Of a stretch of DNA of 64,000 nt, positions 9,149-62,726 are shown one piece after another. The notes beneath the pieces were generated by a model. It had not been told where the DNA came from. It did not search any database and saw nothing but the letters and a program-made list of their open reading frames with translations. Position numbers and translations under genes: made by a program. The first letter of the stretch is position 1. Each line of letters opens with the position of its first letter. This DNA comes from Akkermansia muciniphila (lineage in GTDB: Bacteria; Verrucomicrobiota; Verrucomicrobiia; Verrucomicrobiales; DEV007), in contig CAMCXS010000006.1 of the NCBI GenBank assembly GCA_945883495.1, forward strand, positions 62,001 to 126,000. The letters are read 5' to 3'.

Positions 9149-9278
9149 GTCAGGAACCGAGCAGAAACAATGGAAAAAACAAGTTGATTCTCGCGCGGCA
9201 TCGCCACCGTAGCAGAGCCACGGAGGATCGTCAGCGAAAAAATCAATTTAGTTGTTCCCCCTTGAATCCAAAAACAGA

Positions 9279-10025
9279 ATGAAAGTTGCCGCTACTACCG
9301 AAGGACACCCGGAAGAGTTCCAGATGGTCCAAGGGATCCTTCGGGGAGAGTCCGCCGCCGCGGAACGCTTTACCAAACGATTCCGGGATCCGCTGATTTC
9401 TTGGCTCAGTTCCAAATGCGATGCCAAAGACGGGCGTTCCCGTGAGAAGGCGATCGATCTTGTCGATCAGCTCATCGCCGAGTGCGTGGCCGGGGATTCC
9501 GAGAAGGGCAAGGGACCGCTCCTGTCCAAGTTTGGAGGTAAAGGATCGCTTGAAGGTTGGCTCCGCCGGTCCTCCCGCTGCCGCCTCATCAGTTGGTGGC
9601 GCAGTTTGGAATACCGTTCCGAGCAAACCGAATCCAGTCTGATTACCAGCGATGACGACGACAGCCCGCTGGACACGCGCTTGGCCGTTTCCACGGATGT
9701 TTACACGGAGGAAGCGATCGCGGAAGTGTTGCGGGATGCGCTTCTTTTCGGCTTCCGGCAGGCGGAAAAAGAGGAGCCGCTGGGTTTGGTGTTTCTGCGT
9801 CTCTCCAGTTTGCACGGGATTCAGAAGCAACGCCTCGCGCAGGCTTGGAATCGGGATCCCGCACAAGCCGGTCGGCGTATCACCAAGGCTTTGGAATTGA
9901 TCCGAGACGGTGCTCAGGAGTATGTCCGCTCCGTTGATCCTTACCTGGATTTGGAATGGTCCGATTATCTGAAGGTGTTCGAGGCTTACCCGAGACTTTT
10001 GCACGGGGATGGGGAGTCCGCCTGA
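9279..10025 (+). CDS. Sigma-70-like (ECF-type) regulatory protein
   Basis: 248 residues from the ATG at 9279 (MKVAATTEGHPEEF). The middle follows the sigma region 2 pattern: ERFTKRFRDPLISWL, a DLVDQLIAE helix, then KFGGKGSLEGWLRRSSRCRLISWWR, equivalent to the Fxg-gsLxgWLrtiaRNraidxxR segment. A later segment LRLSSLHGIQKQRLAQAW continuing to RRITKALELI looks like the region 4 helix-turn-helix. It probably directs RNA polymerase to a special set of promoters, but it is divergent and longer than typical ECF factors. It heads a same-strand group with a 73-residue protein, a GAF protein and a subtilase. Confidence 0.75.
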   Translation: MKVAATTEGHPEEFQMVQGILRGESAAAERFTKRFRDPLISWLSSKCDAKDGRSREKAIDLVDQLIAECVAGDSEKGKGPLLSKFGGKGSLEGWLRRSSRCRLISWWRSLEYRSEQTESSLITSDDDDSPLDTRLAVSTDVYTEEAIAEVLRDALLFGFRQAEKEEPLGLVFLRLSSLHGIQKQRLAQAWNRDPAQAGRRITKALELIRDGAQEYVRSVDPYLDLEWSDYLKVFEAYPRLLHGDGESA

Positions 10026-10109
10026 AGGGGAAAGAGGAAGAAAAACGCAAACGCCAACACCCGTCACGTCTGGAAATGCAGACCATAGAAACCCTCACGT
10101 AACCTCCTC

Positions 10110-10331
10110 ATGACAGCAGATCTTCAAGAGTTTGTCCTCATTACTGATTTCCTCGCCTTCCTTGATCCCGAGATCGAGGCGCGTGAAGGATTGACCCCCG
10201 AGATTCGGGATCTCCTTTGTCGCATTGCCCGTGGCGATGCGTCCGATGATGACCGTTCCCGGGCCGTCCCGGTTTTGAATGCCAGCAGCGAGGCCATCGA
10301 GTTCCTCGCCCGGCAGTTGGCTGCCAATTGA
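10110..10331 (+). CDS. Small acidic protein between the sigma-like and GAF genes
   Basis: 73 residues, unrecognised and predicted soluble. The sequence is acidic and probably all helical (ITDFLAFLDPEIEAREGLTP, then a D-rich turn and a C-terminal helix SSEAIEFLARQLAAN). There are no cysteines of the zinc anti-sigma type (HxxxCxxC) and no membrane helix. Its place directly after a sigma-like gene and 3 bases before the GAF gene suggests a co-expressed regulatory partner, but this is inference. The start has CCTCCTC just upstream, not a Shine-Dalgarno sequence. Confidence 0.6.
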   Translation: MTADLQEFVLITDFLAFLDPEIEAREGLTPEIRDLLCRIARGDASDDDRSRAVPVLNASSEAIEFLARQLAAN

Positions 10332-10334
10332 ACC

Positions 10335-10883
10335 ATGAGTCCAACGCCGGCCGCCCCCAGTCTTCAGCAGCAATTGGAACGAGCCGCTCTCGCGGAAATC
10401 GGCCAGCGGCTCACCGGGGTATTGGATGCGGTGACCCGACGGGTGCTCCTCGACGGGTTTCGCGCGGCCGGCGCGGACGAGGGCACCGTTTGGGTGGCCA
10501 ACCCCGGTGCCCGGGAGTTGATCCCAGTCCTCAACAGCGGTCCGGATGAGGGCAGTTTTCTCCGCCAGTTCCGGCAGCCCTTTGACCGGGGCGTGATCAG
10601 CATGGTCTTTCTCAGCGGTCAGGCTTTCTGCGAGAATGACGTCTCCGGGAACTCGACCCATGACCGGACCATCGATACCGCGCTTTCCCAAGTCACCGCC
10701 GCGATGATCGCAGTCCCCTTGTTTTTCGCGAACCGGCCCCGTGGCGTCGTTTCATGCGTTCGTCTGGGCGGCGGGGTGTTCGAAGCGAATCACCTCCGGG
10801 AGATGCAGCATTGCGTTTCCGTCGTGGAGCGGTTGATCGATGGCGGGTTGTTGCAGAACCTTTTGGAATCCGATTTTTCGTGA
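10335..10883 (+). CDS. GAF-domain protein
   Basis: 182 residues, nearly all one GAF domain: the helix AEIGQRLTGVLDAVTRRVLLDGF; strands GTVWVAN and LIPVLNSGPD; the segment GVISMVFLSGQAFCENDV; and the closing AAMIAVPLFFANRPRGVVSCVRL plus a C-terminal helix. GAF domains bind small ligands or mediate signalling contacts. There is no attached output domain, so its output is likely the neighbouring protein. The stop overlaps the GTG start of the subtilase gene (GTGA), which indicates translational coupling. Confidence 0.82.
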   Translation: MSPTPAAPSLQQQLERAALAEIGQRLTGVLDAVTRRVLLDGFRAAGADEGTVWVANPGARELIPVLNSGPDEGSFLRQFRQPFDRGVISMVFLSGQAFCENDVSGNSTHDRTIDTALSQVTAAMIAVPLFFANRPRGVVSCVRLGGGVFEANHLREMQHCVSVVERLIDGGLLQNLLESDFS

Positions 10884-11683
10884 GCGATTCCGGCTGGATT
10901 GTGCCGGAGCAGGCTCGCGAGGCTCTGCGCGCCGGAACGGGTAAGGGAATCAGAGTCGCCATTCTCGATTCCGGGGTCGATTGGTCGCACCCCGCGCTCG
11001 CCAAGGCACGAATTCGGGAGTCTGTCTCCGTTTTGGCCACGGAATTGGGGCCCGAACTGCGCGAGGCGACCGGGGGCGATGTCTTTGGGCATGGGACCGC
11101 CGTCGCGCACTTGGTTCACGAAGTCGCTCCCGAAGCGGAACTTGGGAGCTTTCAGGTGCTTCATTCCGGTGAACACGGTTGTTCCGGAACCGCCTCGACG
11201 TTGGAAATGGCGGTGGGGGCGGCGATCGAACGCGGCTACCACATCATTAACTGCAGTTTCGGAACGCCGGCCCGGCCGCCTATTTTCCGGCACTTCAAAA
11301 GCTGGATCGACGCCGCGTATCTCCATGACGTTCACGTCGTAACGGCCTGCAACAATGCGGATTATGCCCGCCCGGAATGGCCAGCGCACTTTCCCAGTGT
11401 GATCGCGGTGAACATGGGGAGAATTGATGACGACTCGATTCACTACCGGCCGGGCCATCTCGTGGAATTTTTCGCCCGGGGTGAGAAACTACGTGTTCCT
11501 TGGTTGCAGCACGAGTGGAAAACGGTGACCGGCAGCAGCTACGCGGCGCCGAGGGTGGCCGGCTTGTTGGCGCGTCTTCTCTCGGAGCATCGTGGGCTGA
11601 CCGTGCCACTGGTGAAAGCGATTCTCCGCGAAGTCTCGCTGCCCTGGACCGAGCTCGTGGCCGGGGACAACGTCTGGCTCTGA
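10880..11683 (+). CDS. Cytosolic S8 (subtilisin-like) serine protease
   Basis: I start this at GTG 10880, which overlaps the GAF stop as GTGA; an ATG at 10754 would run through the GAF gene. The result is a minimal 267-residue catalytic domain without signal peptide or propeptide. The triad is complete: Asp30 in VAILDSGVDWSHP, His71 in FGHGTAVAHL, and Ser220 in TGSSYAAPRVAGLLARL (GSSYAAP instead of the usual GTSMAAP). An oxyanion Asn lies in VVTACNNADY. The lack of export signal and the coupling to a GAF protein suggest a regulated intracellular protease, with the GAF protein a likely activator or inhibitor. Confidence 0.85.
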   Translation: MSDSGWIVPEQAREALRAGTGKGIRVAILDSGVDWSHPALAKARIRESVSVLATELGPELREATGGDVFGHGTAVAHLVHEVAPEAELGSFQVLHSGEHGCSGTASTLEMAVGAAIERGYHIINCSFGTPARPPIFRHFKSWIDAAYLHDVHVVTACNNADYARPEWPAHFPSVIAVNMGRIDDDSIHYRPGHLVEFFARGEKLRVPWLQHEWKTVTGSSYAAPRVAGLLARLLSEHRGLTVPLVKAILREVSLPWTELVAGDNVWL

Positions 11684-51065: not shown

Positions 51066-54000
51066 TTACTTTGCCTGCAATCCGAAGTGTCCCGGGAATG
51101 CTCCGTTCAGGTAGCTGCCGCTGACCAAATTTTGCTCCTGTAGCAAGACCCCGCCGAAGCGGACATTGATTCCCGTGAAGGCATCCACGCAGCGGCCGGT
51201 GAGGAGACCTGTGCGGGCATTAAAGGTCGTTGAAATGGTTTCCGGCCCAGGGTAGCTCAGCTTGTTCGCGCTAGTCCAGGTGGCTCTGCGGGCGAAGACG
51301 GGATCGCTGCTCCCGGCCTCGAGTGGAGGGCCGGTGAATCGGAGCCAAACGTTGCCAAATCCTTCCGCCAAGCCGCTCATAGCCCTGGCCCCCCGACTGG
51401 GAGCCGTGTATCGGCAGCCCACAACCGGAAGGGTGACGGCGAGATCATGCGGATACCCGGATGCAAGGGCAGTGCCAGCGCGTTTGGCCCAGCGCCAGGT
51501 GCCATCGAGGTCCGTTGGTCCGGTGGCATCTCTGCGGAACGTTAGGCGGCCCGCTACGTAGCCTTTCGAGGGTCTGCCGGGGAGTGCGTGGTGGCAAATC
51601 CACTCCGCAGTGTCCTCTTGGCCAACCTGAAGGGAGCGCCCGACGAAACCTCCCAACGACACGGTGGTTCCATCCGCCAGGGTCACCCGGCCGCTGCAAG
51701 CCCCCGCAGAACTGACCAAGAGGGTGCCGTAGCCGTCGCCAGCTGGCTCAGTTGCCGGGTCGGCACCTTCCTCGGAGCAGATCACGAAGGTGTAAGCCCC
51801 TTCTTGAGGACAGCGATTGCTGGCGGTGAAGCGTTCTTGACGTTGCCCGCTGAGGGTGTGCTCGACGTTATCCACGGTCACGGAGCCCGTGAATCGGTAA
51901 GCTCCCGGAGAGCCCACGATTTCCTGCAAACCGACTCGGAGCTGTGCCGGGGGCAAGGTGCCACGAGCCACCGGTAGGTCCAACGGGCCACTGCGCGGCA
52001 TGGTTCCCCGCACTCTGTAGGCTGTGCCGTCGATCCACAACGTGGCGGTGAGGACTCCGGTTGCCGCGATGCGGAGGTTTTCCAGCGCTCCTGTAACGAT
52101 CTCCGCTCCGGACACCGCATCGGTCCGCGTGAGAAGACCATGGTAAAGCCCAGACATTTGCGTGGGATTGAAGTCGACGGCCGCCACTGGCGGTGGTTCC
52201 GAAGGGGGGCTGGTCGGCTTGCCAACGCGCAACTGCCCGGGGGCCGATTCATAGGGGGTTACCTGAGGCTCGATGCGCACTGCTCCGGAAGCGTCATTGC
52301 GGACGAAGACGCCCCCGACGAGGTTTTGTCGTTGAAAAGCGACCCCGTTGAAACGGGTGACCGCCAGAGTGCCGGGATCCACAAACTCACCCTTCACGGA
52401 TCCATTTCGTGCGGAAGCCGACCCGCTCAACCGATGGTGGCCATGGTGCACGAATTCATTGTTCCTGAACCAGGAAACGACGCGGTCCGCCGAGTCCGAC
52501 GAGGCCGTGGGAGCTGTGGGACCGATCAGGGAGAGTTCCGCGTTCCGGTAAACATCCGCAAAGGCCAAGACGCGGGTCCCTTTGGGCGGCGGAGTAAAAC
52601 GGCTGCCCACCAAGCTCACCTCAAGCCTGAAGTCGTCGGGGTAAAGCGGTTCCCGGGGCGGAACGCGGGTGTCTTTCCCCTTGTGCCACGTAAGTTTCCC
52701 GTCGCAATCGCTTAGGATTTCGCCCCCGGGTTGTTGAGCGACACTGCGGAAGGTGACCCGTCCCGCGATCCGTCCTTTGCCTGGTGACGAGGCATACAAC
52801 TCGGAGTAGACATGCATCTGGCCGTTGCCCGAAAGCAAAGCTTTCTCCGTGAAGCTGGTTCCGTCCCCCAGCTGACCGGACAAGGCGAAGCTGCCGGACG
52901 GGCTGAGCGATGCGGTGGCCCAGCCGTCACCGCCCGGTTCTTCATTCCCCCATCCGGGTTGCGAGGGAAGCAGCACCGTGTAAAGCCCGGTCGCGGCCAA
53001 CCTTGCCGGTACTGGGTTGGAACGGGCGTTGAAGGAAGAATGCACCAGGTCCGCAGTGGCGGCCAGATTGTTCCAGCTCACGGTGCCACGGATCGCACGG
53101 CCCTCCCCGGTGCGGACTAGTCCCAGATCGACCACCATATGGCCGCCGAAGCGCTGCGGCAGTGCCGCGATGAGGCGGCCATCCAGGCCCAAGCTCCCTC
53201 GAAGCGAGGCGTTGGCTCTGTTCAGACGCACCGTTCCGGACAGAAGTCCGCCCGTATCCGTCGCTCCCCGCCGGGGCGGAGAAATCGTCAGCGAGGCCAT
53301 GCCCACGATGGTTTTTTTGTCCTGGACGTCGACGAGAAACCCTTCATACGAGCCGGCGGCTTCCGGAACCCAGATTTCATCGATTCCTTGGGGGGACTGA
53401 ACCTCATCGGATGGGGTGGAGAAGTCCTTGCCGGCGCGGGAGTCGAGCACCAGGGTGCCAGTGGCTTGTCCCTCATACCGTGGATCTTGAACGGTGGCGG
53501 TCACCGCATAGGTTCCGGGCTCAACCGGGGGAACCAGTGATCCATTGTAGGTGACCTCGATGGTGAGACCTGGAGGAACAGTGACGACGGTCGCGGGGCG
53601 GGGCGTGCCATCCGGCTCCTGATAAAGCCCGGCCAACGCCACCACCGACGTATCCGGAGTGACCACAAAGGAGCGAACCACCTCTTGGGCCGGGGCAAAG
53701 TTCGACCCGCCAGGTTGCGACGCCGTGATCCGGACTAGGCCGGTTCCGGTGAAGGTGAGGACCGAGTCCCCCGCAATCGAGCCGGGGCCTTCCGTGACGG
53801 TGAAGACGACCGGGTTGCCGGAGATGCCCCCGGTGGCGGAGAGATTCACCGTGGCCGTCGCAATTTGGTCCGCGATGGGGGGGAAGTCGATCGACTGCGA
53901 AGCGGGGGCGATGTTCAGCGTGCCGGTGGCGGAGCCTGTGTAACGAAGATCGTTGATGGTGGCCTCGACGGCATAGCTGCCGACATCAACCGGCGCTTGG

Positions 54001-57000
54001 GCAAGTCCTGCGTAGGTGAGGTTCACCTGCAATCCCGGAGGCGTGGTGGCCGTCGTGACGGAGCGGGCGGTGCCGTCGTAGGTTTGGTTCAGCGCGCTCA
54101 AGGTGATGCTGCCCTCCGCTTTGAGGACGTTTAGGGTCAGGGGCGCGGCGGCCGCGGGGGCATAGTTTGCGTTTCCGGCTTGCGAGGCGGTGACGATGAC
54201 TTCTCCAGAGGCGGTGAAGGACAGGGAGTTACCGTCCGTGAGGACCCCGGGTCCACTGGTGACGGCAAAGGTGACCGGATTGCCCGAGTCGCCCCCCGTG
54301 GCGGAGATTACGACAGTGGCGGTGGCCAAGGGATCGGGAATCGAGGGGAATTGAATCGTTTGAGAGGCCTTGCTCACGGCCAAGGTCCCGGTGACAGTGC
54401 CTTGATAGCGAGAATCGTTGATGGTGGCCGAGATCGGGTAGCTGCCAACGTTGACCGGGGGGTGGGAACTGCCAGCGTAGGTGATGTTTACGGTCAGGTT
54501 CGGGGGCGTGGTGGTGGCGGTGACGATGCGGGCGGTGCCGTCGTAGGTTTGCTGGAGAGAGCCAAGGGAGATGCTGGCGGCGGCTTTGGTGACGTTCACC
54601 GTGCGGGCCAGGTCTGAAGCGGCGGCGTAGTTCGCGTTCCCAGCCTGGGAGGCGGTGACGATGACCTGGCCGGAGGCGGAGAAGCTCAAGGAATTCCCAC
54701 CCGTGATCTGTCCGGGTCCACTGGTGACGGCAAAGGTGACCGGGTTGCCCGAGCTCCCGCCGGTGGCCGCCAAGAGAACGGTGGCGGTGGCGGTTTGAGT
54801 GGGGATGGTGGGAAAGTCAATGGTCTGCGAAGCCTTGGCCACTACCAGGGTGCCCGTGGCGGAACCCTGATAACGGAGGTCATCAATGGTGGCCACAATG
54901 GCATAGCTCCCAGCATCGACGGGGGGCTGGGCGCCGCCGGCGTAGGTGAGGGTTGTGGTCAAGCCCGGGGGCGAAGTGGTGGCCGTGACGGTGCGCGCTG
55001 AGCCGTTGTAGGTCTGGTTGAGTGGGGCCAAGCTGATGGGGGCGGTTGCCTTGGCGACGTTGATGAAGAGGACCTTGTTTGGGGCGGGTTCGTGGTTTCC
55101 ATCCCCTGCTTGGGATGCGGTGATGCTGACGACGCCCGCGGTGAGAAAGCTCAGCACATTCCCTCCTGTGAGCACCCCGGGACCTCCGCTGAGGGCAAAG
55201 GTGATCGGATTCCCCGAGGTGCCACCGGTGGCGGACAAGAGAACGGTGGCGGTGGCAACCTGATCGGGCACGGGCGTCAAGACGATCTCTTGGGTCGCGA
55301 TGGTGACGGTGAGGAAACCGGAGGCGGCGCCTTGGTAGAGGGGATGGTTGATGGTCCCCGTCACTGGGTAAGTTCCGCGATTCACCGGGGCTTGGGGCGT
55401 TCCGTTGTAAGTGAATTCCACGGGCAAGCCGGCGGGAACGGTCGTGGCGGAAATCACCCGTGGCATGCCGTTGTAAGATTGCGTGAGGGACTCCAGGGAA
55501 ACGAGGGCCATGGCCTTGGAGACCTGGAACCTCTGGATCACGCCGGGGGCCCCGTTGTAATCCTCATTGCCGGCTTGGGAGGCCAAAATGGCCACCTCTC
55601 CCGCGCCGGTGAAGCTCAAGAGATTGCCTCCGGTGAGGGTCGCCGGGCCGCTGTCCACAGAGAAGGTGACCGGGTTGCCAGAGCCCCCGCCGGTGGCGCT
55701 CAAAAGCACGGTGGCGTTCGCCATTTGATCGGGGATGGAGGCGAAGTTGATCGTCTGGTCGAGCTTGGGCGTCTCCACCGTGATGCTGTAAGCCGGCGTG
55801 CTGGGATCGTCCGACGTGAACGTGAGCGTGGCCGTCTTCCGGCCGATGGAGGTGGGGACATGGACCAGCTCCAGAAGCGCCTCGTCGTTTCCAAAGAGGA
55901 CGGAGGAGGAAAGCGCGCCGATTTGGAACTGGCTGAAGTCCCGCCCGGAGAGGGACACGTTGGAAATCGCCAGCCGGTTGGTGCCGCCGTTGGTGAGGGA
56001 GAGCGTGATCGTCTTGCTAGAGCCAACGGCCACCGTGCCCAGGTTGAGGGCGCCACCGGGGGGATGCAGAGTCCCCGCAGGCTGTGCGATCTGGAGCTGC
56101 GCCGGCAAGTCCCGGGTCACACTGAAGAGTTCCGGGCCGGTGGCCGGGTGCATGGCGGAGAAAAAGAGACGGGGCCCCACCGCGGTCAAGGAGCTGGCAA
56201 AGGACGATAGTTCGCCCGGAAAGATGTCCGCGGCCAGATTGGTTCCCACCGCGGTGCCGTCGGTCATCCAAAGTTCGGTCCCGTTGTCGTCATCCGTCGC
56301 CAGGAAGTAGAGGATGTCCCCCATGCGGACGAGCTGGGTCGGCGAGGAGGCCGAGGCTCCTGGCCAGATGTCCTGCAGCAGGAAGGTGCCGTCGGCCGTG
56401 CCGTCGCTGCGCCACAGCTCCCGTCCGTTCACCCCATCGTCCGCCGTGAAGTAGAGGATGCCGCCCATGGCGGCCAGGGAAGCGGGGGAGGAAGACGCCG
56501 ATCCGGGGCGAATATCGCGAACCATGACGGTGCCTTGGGCCGTGCCATCGCTCTTCCACAATTCCGTTCCGCCGGAAGTGCCAGTGGCCGTGAAGAACAA
56601 GGTGCTTCCCACCGCCGTCAAGTTGGAGGGATCGGTACCGAAGCCTCCCGGGTAAATATCCGCCACCAGCACGGTGCCGTCGTCAGTGCCGTCGGTTTTC
56701 CAAAGTTCCGTGCCCACCTCGGTCCGGTTGGCGCTGAAGTAAAGTTCGCCATTCATGACGGCAAAGTTCGCTGGAGAGGAGCTGGAGAGCCCGGGGGCAA
56801 TGTCCTTGACGAGGCGCGTGCCTGCGGTGGTCCCGTCCGTGACCCAAAGTTCCGCGCCCAAGGACTCCTGGGCGCGGAAGTAGATCTTTCCCTTGAATGC
56901 GAAGAAGCCGGTGGGCGAAGATCCAGGGATGCCCTGATTGATGTCCAAAAGCAATGAGGTCCCGCTGGTGGTTCCATCGGTGACCCAAGGTTCGCTGCCG

Positions 57001-60000
57001 AAGGTGCTGTTGTTCGTAGCGGAGAAGACGGTCTTATTCCCCACGCTGGTGAACCCAGTGGGACTGGAGCCTTGACCCGAGGTGGTGACGATGTCCGCCA
57101 GAAGGAAGGTGCCAGCGGACGTTCCATCGGAAACATGAGGTTCCTGATCTGCCGCTATACCCGTGGCGCTGGCGGCAAAGATCGCCTTCGCTCCTTGAGG
57201 GGCAATGCCGGTCGGGCTACTGCTGGTCAATCCGCTGATGATATCCTTGATCCTGGTAGTCGATGCCGTGGTGCCTCCGCTGCGCCAAAGTTCGGTTCCT
57301 GATGTGGAGTCAGTCGCTGCGAAGAAGAGCGTCCCATCGATGTTGCGCAAGCTCGACGGGGATGCTGCGGCGGTCCCGGCCGCGAGGTCTCCGAGCGGAA
57401 AGGTGGTCGGCGCCGTTCCTTGACTGCGCCAGAGTTCACGGCCCGTGGCTCCGTCGTCGGCGGTGAACAAAACCAGGCCATTGAGGTCCATCAGAGCGAT
57501 GGGGCTGGACGAACTGGTGCCCACGAAGATGTCGCGGACCTGCACCGTCCCAGCATTTGTTCCGTCCGTCTTCCACAGCTCGCGTCCCCCTTCTGGACTT
57601 GTCGCGACAAAGTAGAGGATCCCTCCGCTTACTCGAAAAAGTGCCGGTGAGGATGAACTGGCTCCGCCGACGGCGATATCTTTGATCAAGACCGTTCCGA
57701 CGCTCGTGCCATCGCTCTTCCATAGCTCGATTCCTTCAGTAAAGGTGATCGCCGCGAAATAGAGTTCCCCGTTGAAAACCGTGAACGAGGGAGACAACAG
57801 CCCATTGCTGCTGCCGGGCTCGATGTCCTTCACCAAGGTCGTCCCTATCGTGGTTCCATCGGACCGCCACAGTTCCGTGCCCTCCTCGGCAGTGATGGCC
57901 GTGAAGTAAAGAACGGAGCCGTTGGCAATCATGTTCGACACGAAGGATCCCGAGGTGCCGGGAACGATGTCGCGGACCAGGGTTGTGCCCGCGGTGGTTC
58001 CGTTGGTCTTCCAGAGTTCCGACCCGTTTGCCGCAGTTGTGGCGGTGAAGAACACCTGGTTCCCCACGACTCTCAGGCTGGAAGGGCTGGAGCTGGAACC
58101 GCCGCTGTTGATGTCCAGGACCAGTTGGGTCCCCGCACTGGTGCCGTCGGATCTCCAGAGCTCCGCACCTCCGGTCGAACCCGTCGCCGAAAAGAGCAGG
58201 GTGCCATTTAAATTGACGAGATTTCCTGGGGTCGAGCTGAAGGACCCGGGGAAGATATCCGCCACCTGAACCGTTCCTGCCGCGGTCCCGTCGGTTTTCC
58301 AGAGTTCACGACCGCTCGACGAGGTGAACGCCGTAAAGAAGAGGGTGGAACCAACCGCCACCAATGAGGTTGGGGTGGTTAAACTGACACCCGCCGAGAG
58401 GTCGCTGACGACCCGGGTTCCTCCGGGCGTTCCGTCCGTCACCCAAAGCTGGCTTCCTTGGGATGGGACCTCGGCAACGAAGTAAGCCAAATCTCCGATG
58501 CGCTCCATCAAAGGGGAGAACGAGATGCCCTGAGGCCCGGGCACGAAGTCCCGTAGCGGATACGTTCCGGCCGCGGTGCCATCGCTGCGCCAGACTTCGG
58601 TTCCAAGCAGCGGCGTGGTCGCGTAAAAGAGGACGTAGCTGCCCATGGACAGTGGTTGGGAAATGCTGCTAAAGCCGGCGAGGGACGCGCTGATTTCCGT
58701 CACCAACTGGACTCCGTTGCCTAGGGCGGCCCCGCTCCCGCTCAGGTTTATGGTGAACATCGGAGTGTCCGGATCGGTGCTGTTGATGGTGAGCACGGCT
58801 TGACGCAGCCCGGTGGCCGAAGGGGTGAAGGTGACATCGAGCACCCCAAGAGCGCCAGGAGCGACGAGCGATGGATTGAGGGATCCGGGCACAAAGTCCG
58901 CGGCATGCGTGCCGCTGATGGAGCGGTTACTAAGGTTGAGCACCTGTTCTCCGGTGTTGCGCAGCACGAAGCGGCGCACGGAGCGCGAAGGCAACGGGAT
59001 CGAGCCAAAGGAAACAGTATCGCTCCCGCTGACCAGTCCACTGCCCTCCGGTTGTTCCACCAGAAGGTTGGGGACGGCCCCTCCCGAATTGATCACCAAC
59101 TCCAGGGACCACGACAGGATTGAGCCCCCAGAGAGATCGGTGTCATCCGACACAAACAAACTCCAGGTTCCGGCGGCCGGACTGGCGGTCAGTGCCTGCA
59201 AGCTCGTTCCAATGGTCCCGGTGCCACCCGGCGGCAACGGCTCCGTGGCTTCATAGTTTGCGGGGCGGTAGGTGCCGGAAAGGATCGCCGTGCTGTCGGA
59301 GACGGGGGCGGCCGCGGCATCGTCGAATACCAGGTTGAGCGCAGTGCCGACATTGGTCCCGCCCGCATCGGACATCAGGGCGCAGACCTGACCGGACGGC
59401 GCCATAAGGAACAGGTCGAGATCGTCCAACCGGGAGTGGGTTAAGCCCTGGATGCCGACCCGAAGCGATACGAGGCTGCCCAGCAGGCCGGTCACTTGGA
59501 TGGTGGACGGATAGGGAGAGGCGTTGCCCAGGCTTGGAATGCTGATGAAGGATGCGTTGCTGTAGGAAAACAGGCTGCCCGGTACGATGGTGACCTGGAT
59601 GGATTGGGTGTCGGAACCGTTGGCGTTCGCGGCGGTGATGCCGAAGGTGAAGGTGCCCGCCTGCTCGGCCGTGCCGGAGATCAAGCCGCTGGCGCTCAGA
59701 GTCAGACCAGGTGGCAAGGTCCCACTGGAGACCGCAAACGAGGTCGCGGGAGATGAGGTGGTGATCTGGTGGGAAAAGAGTTGATTCAATCCGCCCCTAA
59801 ACGTCGCCGCACTGGTGATCAGCGGGAGCGGCGGTCCCACCCGGATGTCGTCAAAGGCAAACCCGTCCGAGGGGATGGAGAAGTCGTCATAATGGTTGAA
59901 GCGAATGCGGAACTGATTGCCCCGTGGCAGGCCAAAACTCGTGATCGCCGCGCCGAGATCCACGGAGAAAAGTCTCCAAGCAGCGGAAATCTCGCTGCGC

Positions 60001-62726
60001 AGGGGCTGGACCTCGTACCAAGTCGTGCCGTCGGCGCTGATGGCCACGCCATCGAAGTCGGCTCCGCTGGTGAAGGGAACGGTCGGCGGGCCGTGCGCTT
60101 CATCTCCAAATTCCTTAGCCCAAAACGACAGCTGCAGATCTCCCGATGGCGGCAGATTGATCGTCAAGGTCAGCTCATTGCGCGACAACGTTGTATTTGT
60201 GCTGGAATCCATGAGCAAATGACGCAGTCCGCGATAGGGCTCGTTTGCGGCGGAAACCACCGTGCGTGCGGCATTGGTTCCGCCGATCTCCCAGTAAGTT
60301 CCTAAGGAGTTTTCGAAGTCTTCGAACAGCGGAACGGTGGCTGGGGCGACAATGTTGATCGTCAGGGTTTGGGTGTCGGATCCGGCCGCGTTGGTGGCCG
60401 TGACGTCCACCGGGAAGACGCCCCCGTTTTGCGGTGTTCCCGAAATCTGTCCCGTCACCGGGTTCAGAGTCAGGCCTGACGGAAGGCTGCCGCTCAGGCT
60501 GAACGACTCGGCCGCCACCGATGTGGTGATCTGGTGCGAAAACGGCTGCCCGGCCACCCCGGCGACGGTGTCCGGACTGGTGATGATGGGCCGCGGGTCG
60601 CTGTGCCCGGTGAGGATCAGGGAGAAAGTCTGTTGCCCTTCGGACAAGCTGCCCACATGATCCACGGTGACGGTGTAGATTCCGGGGGCCGGAGGATTGG
60701 AGATGAGGACCTGTTCCACGTTGTCCACCGTGTTCACTCCCGGGACCGCCAGGGCGGTGAGCGCCGCGTTGCTCCAGTCCCCGACGTAGGGCATCACAAA
60801 GGGCAGATGCGTCGTGCCGCCCGGTCCGGTGATGGACAGGTTGAGGTCATTCACCAAGTCTGGGGTCCGGTCATCGTGGGCGGAGACCCCGGTGCCAGCG
60901 GGATCGGTCCAACACAGCGTCGCCCGGATGGGCTGGGTCCCGTCCCAGACGATGGTGTAGGTCTGGGAGCCACCGTTCTGCAAGGTGTCTTCCACCAGGT
61001 GATCGGTGAAGGGGCGATCCGCCTGAGCCCGGATGATGTCCGCCGCCGCTTTGGTGTTCATCAAACCCCAGCCATACTGGTAATCCGGCCCAGCCCGTCC
61101 AATGTCATCCGCGGTGTGAATGATCAGCCCCTTGAGCGTGCTCGCCCGCATCACCTCTCCAGGAAAGCGCTGCCCGTAATAATCGATCAGCAGCATCGCG
61201 GAACCACAGGCGTTTGGCGCCGCCATGCTGGTTCCGCTGCTGGAGTAATAGTTGGTATCAGACAGGCTTCCCGACGAGTACAATCCAGCTCCGTTGCCCA
61301 CGATGTCCGGCTTGATCCGTCCATCGTCTGTCGGCCCGGTGGAGCTGAAGCTGGTCAAGGTCGACGGCGCCAGATCCCGGACGCCGGAGGTGACGGCATC
61401 ATTCGCCGCACCGATCGTCATGACGTTTTTGCAACTTTTGTAGGTTCCGGTCAGCAGGTCATATCCGGCCTTGTAGACCCCATCTGCAACGGGATGCTGC
61501 GCCGGATCATACGCTCGCTGGGGTCCGTTTGTCCCTTGAAACCAAGTTTGGCCCGAGGCCGGAGGCGTATCACTCCGGTCGTTGCCAGAGGACCAAAAGG
61601 GAAGGTAATAGGGGAGGTTGAACAGCATTGCGTCGTAGAGCACGCTCACGCTCGTGTCATAGCGCCCATAGACCGTATCGATATCGTTCGCCGGATTGCC
61701 ATCATCCGAGAAGGTGCCGAGCCATGTGGACGTCGCTGGATCCCATCCCAAGCGGAATCCGTAGGAATGGTTGGAGAGATAAATCTTTCCCGGTTCCTCG
61801 GGAAACGAGGCTCCCGCCGCGAGCATCTCCGAAGCCGCATTCGAGGCCTCATAGGCATCGATCGCCGCCATCGGAGCCATTCCCAAAGCGCCAGGATCAA
61901 TGCCAATGGCGGTCAGGGTGCCAGCGACGTGCGTGGCGTGATTACTGACGGTGGTATAGCCGTCTCGCACCGTGACTTTGGTTGGCAGGCCGAATTCCTG
62001 GTGCGTGACGCGGGGGATGCCCTGCGCTTCCCACAAACCAAAAACCAAACCGGCTCCGTTAGCCTGGAAGGGAGTGATGGTGCGAACGAGGTTGGCCGCG
62101 CTGCTGATGGCGGCGTTGGCGTTGTGCGACCCTTCATACAAGGGACGGTCCCCATCGAATCCCACCAGCGCCAGCCGGGTTCCATCCGGATCCACGATCA
62201 GAGTGGGAAGCCCCAGCCGTTTGGCTTTGTCGCGGATCACCTCGGTTTTCTCATCTTCCAAGGCCCGCAGGCGAGCCACCAAGGCCGCCCGCTGCTGGGG
62301 ATCACTCAGCTCCACGCGCCCCATCAGCAGCCCTGCCGCCTCCTCTTCCACTTCGCCAAGCTCCCGCTGCCCTGGGGCCGCGCGGCGGGCCTCCTTCACG
62401 GGACCCGGCCCGGCGGCACCGGCGGCGCCTTGGGGAGCTCCAGCTGGCGCGGCACTCTTCTGCGCGATGCCCAGAGCGCTCCCTGCTGTGCCACGATTGG
62501 GATTGGAATTCACCCCCGTGGACGGTTCCGCCGCCGCCACGCCCTCCGCCCGGCGCCCGCTCCCGGGACCCGATTCCGCCACAGTTCGCGGCGCGGGATC
62601 ATCGCCAGCAGCAGGTGCCGGGTCTTGCCAGCCGCGCCTCACCCAGAGAGCGATGCCGGTGAGAACGGCCACGGCCAGGATGGCTGTCAGGATCCGTGGC
62701 AGGTGTTTTGGATGGAACGGAATCAT
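51066..62726 (-). CDS. Giant exported multidomain protein with N-terminal subtilase domain
   Basis: 3886 residues. A signal or membrane helix lies at ~11-28 and a Pro/Ala/Gly-rich stretch at ~33-120. The subtilase domain is at ~200-560: His263 in NHATHVAGTLT, oxyanion Asn382 in WSSGND, Ser500 in SSSGTSMAAPNACGS. The usual Asp position is Glu233 (LVFGLWEAQGIP). Next come putative Ig modules (~730-1050), a P-domain-like segment (~1055-1210), choice-of-anchor D modules (~1256-1342, ~2223-2326), 17 ELWxSDGT repeats (~1385-2170), MBG-type repeats (~2340-3100) and two C-terminal beta-rich modules (~3115-3886). No standard cell-wall sorting signal is seen. Probably a secreted or surface protein for adhesion or protein breakdown. 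It is the largest gene in the window. Confidence 0.88.
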   Translation of the reverse strand: MIPFHPKHLPRILTAILAVAVLTGIALWVRRGWQDPAPAAGDDPAPRTVAESGPGSGRRAEGVAAAEPSTGVNSNPNRGTAGSALGIAQKSAAPAGAPQGAAGAAGPGPVKEARRAAPGQRELGEVEEEAAGLLMGRVELSDPQQRAALVARLRALEDEKTEVIRDKAKRLGLPTLIVDPDGTRLALVGFDGDRPLYEGSHNANAAISSAANLVRTITPFQANGAGLVFGLWEAQGIPRVTHQEFGLPTKVTVRDGYTTVSNHATHVAGTLTAIGIDPGALGMAPMAAIDAYEASNAASEMLAAGASFPEEPGKIYLSNHSYGFRLGWDPATSTWLGTFSDDGNPANDIDTVYGRYDTSVSVLYDAMLFNLPYYLPFWSSGNDRSDTPPASGQTWFQGTNGPQRAYDPAQHPVADGVYKAGYDLLTGTYKSCKNVMTIGAANDAVTSGVRDLAPSTLTSFSSTGPTDDGRIKPDIVGNGAGLYSSGSLSDTNYYSSSGTSMAAPNACGSAMLLIDYYGQRFPGEVMRASTLKGLIIHTADDIGRAGPDYQYGWGLMNTKAAADIIRAQADRPFTDHLVEDTLQNGGSQTYTIVWDGTQPIRATLCWTDPAGTGVSAHDDRTPDLVNDLNLSITGPGGTTHLPFVMPYVGDWSNAALTALAVPGVNTVDNVEQVLISNPPAPGIYTVTVDHVGSLSEGQQTFSLILTGHSDPRPIITSPDTVAGVAGQPFSHQITTSVAAESFSLSGSLPSGLTLNPVTGQISGTPQNGGVFPVDVTATNAAGSDTQTLTINIVAPATVPLFEDFENSLGTYWEIGGTNAARTVVSAANEPYRGLRHLLMDSSTNTTLSRNELTLTINLPPSGDLQLSFWAKEFGDEAHGPPTVPFTSGADFDGVAISADGTTWYEVQPLRSEISAAWRLFSVDLGAAITSFGLPRGNQFRIRFNHYDDFSIPSDGFAFDDIRVGPPLPLITSAATFRGGLNQLFSHQITTSSPATSFAVSSGTLPPGLTLSASGLISGTAEQAGTFTFGITAANANGSDTQSIQVTIVPGSLFSYSNASFISIPSLGNASPYPSTIQVTGLLGSLVSLRVGIQGLTHSRLDDLDLFLMAPSGQVCALMSDAGGTNVGTALNLVFDDAAAAPVSDSTAILSGTYRPANYEATEPLPPGGTGTIGTSLQALTASPAAGTWSLFVSDDTDLSGGSILSWSLELVINSGGAVPNLLVEQPEGSGLVSGSDTVSFGSIPLPSRSVRRFVLRNTGEQVLNLSNRSISGTHAADFVPGSLNPSLVAPGALGVLDVTFTPSATGLRQAVLTINSTDPDTPMFTINLSGSGAALGNGVQLVTEISASLAGFSSISQPLSMGSYVLFYATTPLLGTEVWRSDGTAAGTYPLRDFVPGPQGISFSPLMERIGDLAYFVAEVPSQGSQLWVTDGTPGGTRVVSDLSAGVSLTTPTSLVAVGSTLFFTAFTSSSGRELWKTDGTAAGTVQVADIFPGSFSSTPGNLVNLNGTLLFSATGSTGGAELWRSDGTSAGTQLVLDINSGGSSSSPSSLRVVGNQVFFTATTAANGSELWKTNGTTAGTTLVRDIVPGTSGSFVSNMIANGSVLYFTAITAEEGTELWRSDGTTIGTTLVKDIEPGSSNGLLSPSFTVFNGELYFAAITFTEGIELWKSDGTSVGTVLIKDIAVGGASSSSPALFRVSGGILYFVATSPEGGRELWKTDGTNAGTVQVRDIFVGTSSSSPIALMDLNGLVLFTADDGATGRELWRSQGTAPTTFPLGDLAAGTAAASPSSLRNIDGTLFFAATDSTSGTELWRSGGTTASTTRIKDIISGLTSSSPTGIAPQGAKAIFAASATGIAADQEPHVSDGTSAGTFLLADIVTTSGQGSSPTGFTSVGNKTVFSATNNSTFGSEPWVTDGTTSGTSLLLDINQGIPGSSPTGFFAFKGKIYFRAQESLGAELWVTDGTTAGTRLVKDIAPGLSSSSPANFAVMNGELYFSANRTEVGTELWKTDGTDDGTVLVADIYPGGFGTDPSNLTAVGSTLFFTATGTSGGTELWKSDGTAQGTVMVRDIRPGSASSSPASLAAMGGILYFTADDGVNGRELWRSDGTADGTFLLQDIWPGASASSPTQLVRMGDILYFLATDDDNGTELWMTDGTAVGTNLAADIFPGELSSFASSLTAVGPRLFFSAMHPATGPELFSVTRDLPAQLQIAQPAGTLHPPGGALNLGTVAVGSSKTITLSLTNGGTNRLAISNVSLSGRDFSQFQIGALSSSVLFGNDEALLELVHVPTSIGRKTATLTFTSDDPSTPAYSITVETPKLDQTINFASIPDQMANATVLLSATGGGSGNPVTFSVDSGPATLTGGNLLSFTGAGEVAILASQAGNEDYNGAPGVIQRFQVSKAMALVSLESLTQSYNGMPRVISATTVPAGLPVEFTYNGTPQAPVNRGTYPVTGTINHPLYQGAASGFLTVTIATQEIVLTPVPDQVATATVLLSATGGTSGNPITFALSGGPGVLTGGNVLSFLTAGVVSITASQAGDGNHEPAPNKVLFINVAKATAPISLAPLNQTYNGSARTVTATTSPPGLTTTLTYAGGAQPPVDAGSYAIVATIDDLRYQGSATGTLVVAKASQTIDFPTIPTQTATATVLLAATGGSSGNPVTFAVTSGPGQITGGNSLSFSASGQVIVTASQAGNANYAAASDLARTVNVTKAAASISLGSLQQTYDGTARIVTATTTPPNLTVNITYAGSSHPPVNVGSYPISATINDSRYQGTVTGTLAVSKASQTIQFPSIPDPLATATVVISATGGDSGNPVTFAVTSGPGVLTDGNSLSFTASGEVIVTASQAGNANYAPAAAAPLTLNVLKAEGSITLSALNQTYDGTARSVTTATTPPGLQVNLTYAGLAQAPVDVGSYAVEATINDLRYTGSATGTLNIAPASQSIDFPPIADQIATATVNLSATGGISGNPVVFTVTEGPGSIAGDSVLTFTGTGLVRITASQPGGSNFAPAQEVVRSFVVTPDTSVVALAGLYQEPDGTPRPATVVTVPPGLTIEVTYNGSLVPPVEPGTYAVTATVQDPRYEGQATGTLVLDSRAGKDFSTPSDEVQSPQGIDEIWVPEAAGSYEGFLVDVQDKKTIVGMASLTISPPRRGATDTGGLLSGTVRLNRANASLRGSLGLDGRLIAALPQRFGGHMVVDLGLVRTGEGRAIRGTVSWNNLAATADLVHSSFNARSNPVPARLAATGLYTVLLPSQPGWGNEEPGGDGWATASLSPSGSFALSGQLGDGTSFTEKALLSGNGQMHVYSELYASSPGKGRIAGRVTFRSVAQQPGGEILSDCDGKLTWHKGKDTRVPPREPLYPDDFRLEVSLVGSRFTPPPKGTRVLAFADVYRNAELSLIGPTAPTASSDSADRVVSWFRNNEFVHHGHHRLSGSASARNGSVKGEFVDPGTLAVTRFNGVAFQRQNLVGGVFVRNDASGAVRIEPQVTPYESAPGQLRVGKPTSPPSEPPPVAAVDFNPTQMSGLYHGLLTRTDAVSGAEIVTGALENLRIAATGVLTATLWIDGTAYRVRGTMPRSGPLDLPVARGTLPPAQLRVGLQEIVGSPGAYRFTGSVTVDNVEHTLSGQRQERFTASNRCPQEGAYTFVICSEEGADPATEPAGDGYGTLLVSSAGACSGRVTLADGTTVSLGGFVGRSLQVGQEDTAEWICHHALPGRPSKGYVAGRLTFRRDATGPTDLDGTWRWAKRAGTALASGYPHDLAVTLPVVGCRYTAPSRGARAMSGLAEGFGNVWLRFTGPPLEAGSSDPVFARRATWTSANKLSYPGPETISTTFNARTGLLTGRCVDAFTGINVRFGGVLLQEQNLVSGSYLNGAFPGHFGLQAK
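53440..55700. repeat. MBG-type repeat region inside the giant gene
   Basis: Five tandem copies of about 155 residues (~465 bases). The GNPxTF-like strand recurs near 55680, 55206, 54740, 54275 and 53815. Each copy has ATATVLLSATGG(T/S)SGNP, a LSFxxxGxVxITASQAGN strand and the LNQTYNGxARxVTATTxPPG strand. DNA identity between copies is high, so unequal recombination could change copy number. Confidence 0.85.
56240..58600. repeat. Tandem ELWxSDGT repeats inside the giant gene
   Basis: I count 17 copies of the ELW(R/K)(S/T)DGT motif with its following G-T-x-L-V-x-D-I strand, about 144 bases (48 residues) apart. They probably form one or more beta-propellers. Copies are more varied than the MBG block. 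Confidence 0.82.

Follow-up and report, generated by a model that had tools for sequence, protein, structure and literature searches.

Within the window analyzed here, the whole stretch of 64,000 nucleotides from a Verrucomicrobiota genome, four genes on the forward strand raise the question of why a sigma factor, a very small protein, a GAF-domain protein and a subtilase are encoded together and which of them acts on which. The gene of the ECF sigma factor (9279-10025, 248 aa) is separated by 84 bp from a gene for a 73-aa protein (10110-10331). The gene of a stand-alone GAF-domain protein (10335-10883, 182 aa) starts 3 bases past the stop of the small gene, and the GTG start of the S8 subtilase gene (10880-11683, 267 aa) lies inside the GAF stop, resulting in a GTGA overlap. 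A first-pass annotation had given the same four positions, the 3-base spacing and the overlap, all of which were found again.

The same annotation had described the subtilase as a bare cytosolic core with an intact catalytic triad, and this description holds. The protein matches PF00082 above the cut-off (75.7 bits), its AF2 model is a complete subtilisin core with a pLDDT of 90, and neither a signal peptide nor a propeptide was found in it. Across the S8 alignment, Asp30 (codon GAT, 10967-10969), His71 (CAT, 11090-11092), Ser220 (AGC, 11537-11539, aligned with the subtilisin serine) and the oxyanion residue N159 are invariant. A further S8 domain, unrelated to this operon, is located near 61065-61973 in a 3886-aa ORF on the reverse strand of the window (51066-62726). 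The GAF protein scores just below the gathering cut-offs of PF13185 (GAF_2, 28.3 of 28.6 bits) and PF01590 (GAF, 22.3 of 22.4 bits) over residues 29-159, and a homologue from the Chloroflexota side reaches 72 bits. Its nearest solved sequence is the CyaB2 GAF domain (1ykd, E 5e-4). It is presumed to be the sensor or regulator of the protease, and we infer that the S8 enzyme is gated by a ligand of this protein.

In a set of 142 related genomes, S8 homologues (E<1e-20) were detected in 65, the sigma subfamily (>200 bits) in 52 and homologues of the 73-aa protein in 55. Sigma, small protein and S8 occur together in 50 genomes and are all absent from 75. The 17 mixed genomes comprise eleven with S8 alone, four with S8 and the small protein without sigma, one with the small protein and sigma and one with sigma alone, the last two being incomplete genomes. 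Several of the S8-only genomes contain loci with other partners, namely an L,D-transpeptidase (type B) or a RiPP (type C). In one genome (G050; L070, L084, L085) the set is present three times, in whole or in part, and these copies have diverged and are each rearranged. The p-values for this co-occurrence are inflated by shared ancestry, as many of the genomes belong to one genus.

The clustering on which the first-pass annotation had relied recurs at the level of individual loci. The GAF gene adjoins S8 in 40 of 40 fetched related loci (39 by tblastn, the fortieth by reading), and the GAF protein is thus the constant partner of the protease. Of 41 loci, 24 encode a small protein of 71-80 aa and 16 a sigma factor, whose gene has the small gene beside it in every case. 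Given this adjacency of GAF and S8, and since no sigma gene in these loci lacks the small gene, the four-gene cluster is conserved and not a product of chance. The genes could still be neighbors without any functional link, clustered by shared ancestry alone, and the large share of genomes from one genus would fit such an explanation. However, it is highly improbable, since the order has been rearranged while all four genes were retained. Eleven loci are collinear, five loci of one family (f4) have the sigma and small gene pair convergent with the GAF and S8 pair, and one locus (L084) is divergent. In one genus the co-occurrence is kept even though the sigma gene lies 9-22 kb away from the small, GAF and S8 genes.

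The sigma-family profile matches solved ECF sigma factors across regions 2 and 4 (AlgU 2e-11) and aligns with AlgU/SigE over positions 7-203. Regions 2 and 4 are present and region 3 is not, which is the arrangement that defines ECF sigma factors. Members of the family match PF04542/PF08281, and the window protein on its own stays below the curated NCBIfam cut-offs. Judged by its sequence, the product of 9279-10025 is a true ECF sigma factor, with a conserved C-terminal extension past region 4 (DPYLDLEWSDYL). It is probably the output of the putative switch formed by the four genes.

For the 73-aa protein, no Pfam or NCBIfam family was found above the cut-off. In its AF2 model, a helix at residues 3-17 is followed by a linker of low confidence (18-29) and, at residues 30-72, by three helices that form a confidently predicted bundle. 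The closest solved folds to this model are the anti-sigma domains of MucA, RsiW, ChrR and DdvA, with weak matches of 1.9-2.5 angstrom over 45-48 residues, a Z of at most 4.5 for about 47 residues and non-significant Foldseek E-values of 4-10. This likeness of the model is supportive of an anti-sigma identity and not a proof of it. The HxxxCxxC zinc motif of ZAS proteins is present in none of the 45 homologues, and no transmembrane helix as in membrane anti-sigma factors of the RIP type was found in the 73 aa, whose four helices include no long hydrophobic segment. From the homologues and the model, the protein is predicted to be a soluble, zinc-less anti-sigma domain and a candidate substrate of the S8 enzyme. 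Alternatively, it may act in trans on an S8 enzyme that has no propeptide of its own, either inhibiting it or helping it to fold, with no role in sigma inhibition. The frequent position of the small gene 5' of GAF and S8 agrees with this, but such a function is improbable for several reasons. Subtilisin propeptides have an alpha/beta fold, whereas this protein is predicted to be all-helical. Furthermore, the GAF-S8 pairs of types B and C manage without it, and in family f4 the small gene is encoded with the sigma gene on the strand opposite to GAF and S8.

The linker of the small protein contains a short conserved motif. Of the 45 homologues, 43 have a tag of the form [DEQT][VI]x[GA][HR] here, for example PEVSGH or PDVEGH, compared to 3 of 39 sigma factors and 3 of 64 GAF proteins. 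In the window it is present in a degenerate version, PEIEAR (residues 20-25, 10167-10184), which falls inside the low-confidence, presumably flexible linker of the AF2 model and is a candidate recognition or cleavage tag. The first-pass annotation had considered the sigma factor as a possible target or regulator. This idea holds in part, as the sigma factor is the probable output, whereas the likely substrate is its 73-aa partner, because of the anti-sigma-like predicted fold of the latter and the much higher frequency of the tag in it. A subtilase that targets the sigma factor itself and keeps its level low, as has been shown for AntA with ClpXP, with the small protein as an adaptor, would be in line with the subtilases in the ECF54 context and with sigma degradation as a known mode of control (review PMC8999054), and the conserved C-terminal extension of the sigma factor could also be read in this way. 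Both the rarity of the tag in sigma factors and the predicted fold of the small protein argue against it, and we regard it as quite unlikely.

The pairing of GAF and S8 is not restricted to sigma loci. In a scan of named genomes, such pairs were also found in Chloroflexota, Actinomycetota, Myxococcota and Hyphomicrobiales, and a close S8 is present in 27 of 251 sampled genomes from the phylum of locus L122. GAF-S8 is a wider two-gene module with other partners elsewhere, including RiPP precursors, L,D-transpeptidases and DVEGH-repeat proteins. In the S8 tree, whose partner labels were assigned automatically and in which the window S8 is unlabelled because of a false antisense ORF called over the small and GAF genes, S8 enzymes with the same type of partner group together, and the type has changed more than once. 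Near GAF-S8, the strict tag was matched 118 times in 70 of 124 loci, whereas control tags made by permuting its residue classes in every possible order gave a mean of 11 matches in 10 loci and a maximum of 40 in 33. The S8 proteins were excluded from these counts because the segment of their catalytic histidine, DVFGHG, itself fits the tag. For S8 without GAF there was no excess (7 of 41 loci, permuted maximum 10), and in the non-verrucomicrobial GAF-S8 loci the strict tag was absent from the called genes in 21 of 44.

In RiPP clusters with a radical SAM enzyme (rSAM) and an MNIO protein (PF05114), the precursor reads ...GDVEAH-GWCWRRNHFCNHW..., with the tag exactly at the junction of leader and core. 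A precursor of the form MAILRSSDGKFYEV...DVEAH-GWCWRRN... was observed in L073, L173, L174, L178, L179 and L181 (also L182, L184 and L187), and rSAM, MNIO, GAF and S8 genes occur in these clusters in varying combinations. Those precursors that were searched matched no Pfam or NCBIfam family. L182 has kept the tag, with no GAF neighbor detected, and in L177 and L183, where S8 has no GAF neighbor, the tag is absent. In three of the clusters (L073, L174, L181), a basic ORF of 53-54 aa (..DRIRSVR.G.RA.QPL.YRI.LVR..) comes first in the operon, behind a TGCATA-N15/16-CGTC promoter. An aroma-sacti RiPP protein (NF045560) beside GAF-S8 bears the tag and ends in EEAEVSGHDIKLL. Precursor-like ORFs of about 75-80 aa were seen near GAF-S8 in L120, L226, L231 and L232 (DVQGY and EVSGY in L120, L231 and L232), together with an enzyme of about 900 aa which by eye resembles lanthipeptide synthetases.

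In GAF-S8-YkuD loci, 18 of 19 L,D-transpeptidases carry the tag about 10 aa ahead of a buried hydrophobic, signal-like stretch ending in AxA, so that a cut at the tag would create an N-terminal signal peptide. Several of these loci (L041, L048, L054, L066, L107 and others) encode an N-terminal domain of about 190 aa, followed by the tag and the signal-like segment. In Chloroflexota and Actinomycetota, small proteins with 2-7 DVEGH/DTEGH repeats are encoded beside GAF-S8, and such tandem repeat proteins (L223, L235, L241, L244, L247, L251) were often found by eye near a CRP-family regulator.

These loci suggest that a cross-phylum GAF-S8 group probably recognizes tags of the form [DE][VI]x[GA][H/R/Y], including those in RiPP and L,D-transpeptidase precursors. 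The group is defined by an S8 gene adjoining a GAF gene and a neighbor with such a tag, and the window has both. A more general proposal, to which we assign about an even chance, sees in GAF-S8 a widespread cytosolic protease module that is gated by a ligand and directed by the tag, at which it cuts. It would mature RiPP precursors and DVEGH-repeat peptides, unmask the export signal of L,D-transpeptidases and, in Verrucomicrobiota, be wired to an anti-sigma factor. If true, one protease logic would serve peptide maturation, protein export and transcription.

The upstream regions probably connect the sigma factor to the operon in related genera. Of 47 small genes, 19 have an ECF-type promoter sequence, TGCATA-N15/16-CGTC, within the 140 bp 5' of them. 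The corresponding counts are 2 of 40 for sigma genes and 6 of 736 for other genes, and scrambled versions gave zero matches. CGTC is typical of ECF -10 elements. In these genera, the sigma factor probably drives its own small-GAF-S8 operon. Within the genus of the window, counts of TGCATA-N16-CGTC are at control level and none was found at the operon. A different conserved upstream block, CCGAGCAGAAACAA..AACAAGTTGATTCT..CACCGT (9157-9220, forward strand), was found there in a three-genome alignment as a possible promoter and is unlike that of the related genera. Several of the six other genes with the element belong to RiPP loci, and the ORF that opens a RiPP operon is one of them.

This common promoter, and the fact that RiPP clusters and multi-repeat proteins share the protease family and the tag, would also suit a 73-aa protein that is itself a peptide precursor, from which S8 frees an N- or C-terminal signal or product while the sigma factor merely controls expression. 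Nevertheless, this is unlikely, as no modification enzyme or exporter was seen in the window operon, the small gene always accompanies sigma, and the region after the tag is, according to the homologue alignment and the AF2 model, a conserved folded three-helix domain.

The explanation that we consider rather likely is that the operon is an ECF sigma switch gated by proteolysis, in which a GAF-controlled S8 enzyme cuts an anti-sigma factor at its tag and frees the sigma factor. The sigma factor would be held by the soluble, zinc-less 73-aa anti-sigma protein until the GAF protein binds, or loses, a cytosolic ligand and allows S8 to cut. Cleavage at the linker tag PEIEAR would then detach the three-helix domain from the N-terminal helix, with release of the sigma factor. 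Within this scheme, the order and co-occurrence of the genes and the enrichment of tag and promoter are computational results and the anti-sigma fold is a prediction, whereas we infer the binding of sigma, the cleavage and its exact residue, and the gating by a ligand. If true, the cutting of a soluble anti-sigma factor by a dedicated cytosolic subtilase would add a new way of activating a sigma factor. The shared tag also provides a rule, open to direct testing, for the substrates of a protease group that spans several phyla. Among the substrates predicted by it are RiPP precursors not yet characterised and a signal peptide that is hidden.

In the literature searched, of which few subscription papers and preprints were part, neither a combination of sigma, anti-sigma, GAF and S8 nor a DVxGH tag was described, in agreement with the first-pass annotation, which knew of no named system with this layout. 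No work joining GAF and S8 with RiPPs or ECF sigma factors was found in it, 'DVEGH' appeared only as chance strings, and 'aroma-sacti' gave no result.

Individual elements of the proposed switch can nevertheless be compared with known systems. Among S8 enzymes, QhpE is a stand-alone protease that acts on a neighboring precursor. It is the best NCBIfam match of the window S8 (NF049966), which is likewise stand-alone, but the score of 93.8 bits is below the cut-off of 165, no Qhp genes were seen nearby and the partner is a GAF protein. PatA/PatG and LanP are S8 enzymes that cut at the boundary of leader and core, similar to the type C loci. They differ by the GAF partner and the DVxGH tag of the latter, and the partner protein in the window is predicted to be anti-sigma-like. 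Bacillus intracellular subtilisins (7y6m) are also cytosolic and without a signal peptide, but share about 27 % identity with the window S8 and are not known to be linked to GAF or sigma. Regarding the sigma factor, RpoE-ChrR and SigH-RshA resemble the window in having an ECF sigma factor followed by a small soluble protein, whose anti-sigma-like fold is a prediction in the window, and in a cytosolic signal, presumed for the window, whereas the window set has no zinc ligands and adds a dedicated protease, a separate GAF protein and a proposed cleavage site in the linker. Known soluble anti-sigma systems work by conformational change, partner switch or mechanosensing (PMC8999054). In RsiW, MucA and RsiV, proteolysis of the anti-sigma factor releases the sigma factor as proposed here, but the window set has no membrane protein and no site-1 or site-2 proteases, and all of its components are predicted to be cytosolic. 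The ECF54 group, compared by its description only, shares a subtilase gene near an ECF sigma gene; it differs by a subtilase and CHAT context with no anti-sigma described and no GAF named, and its sigma factor is the proposed subtilase substrate (PMC8999054).
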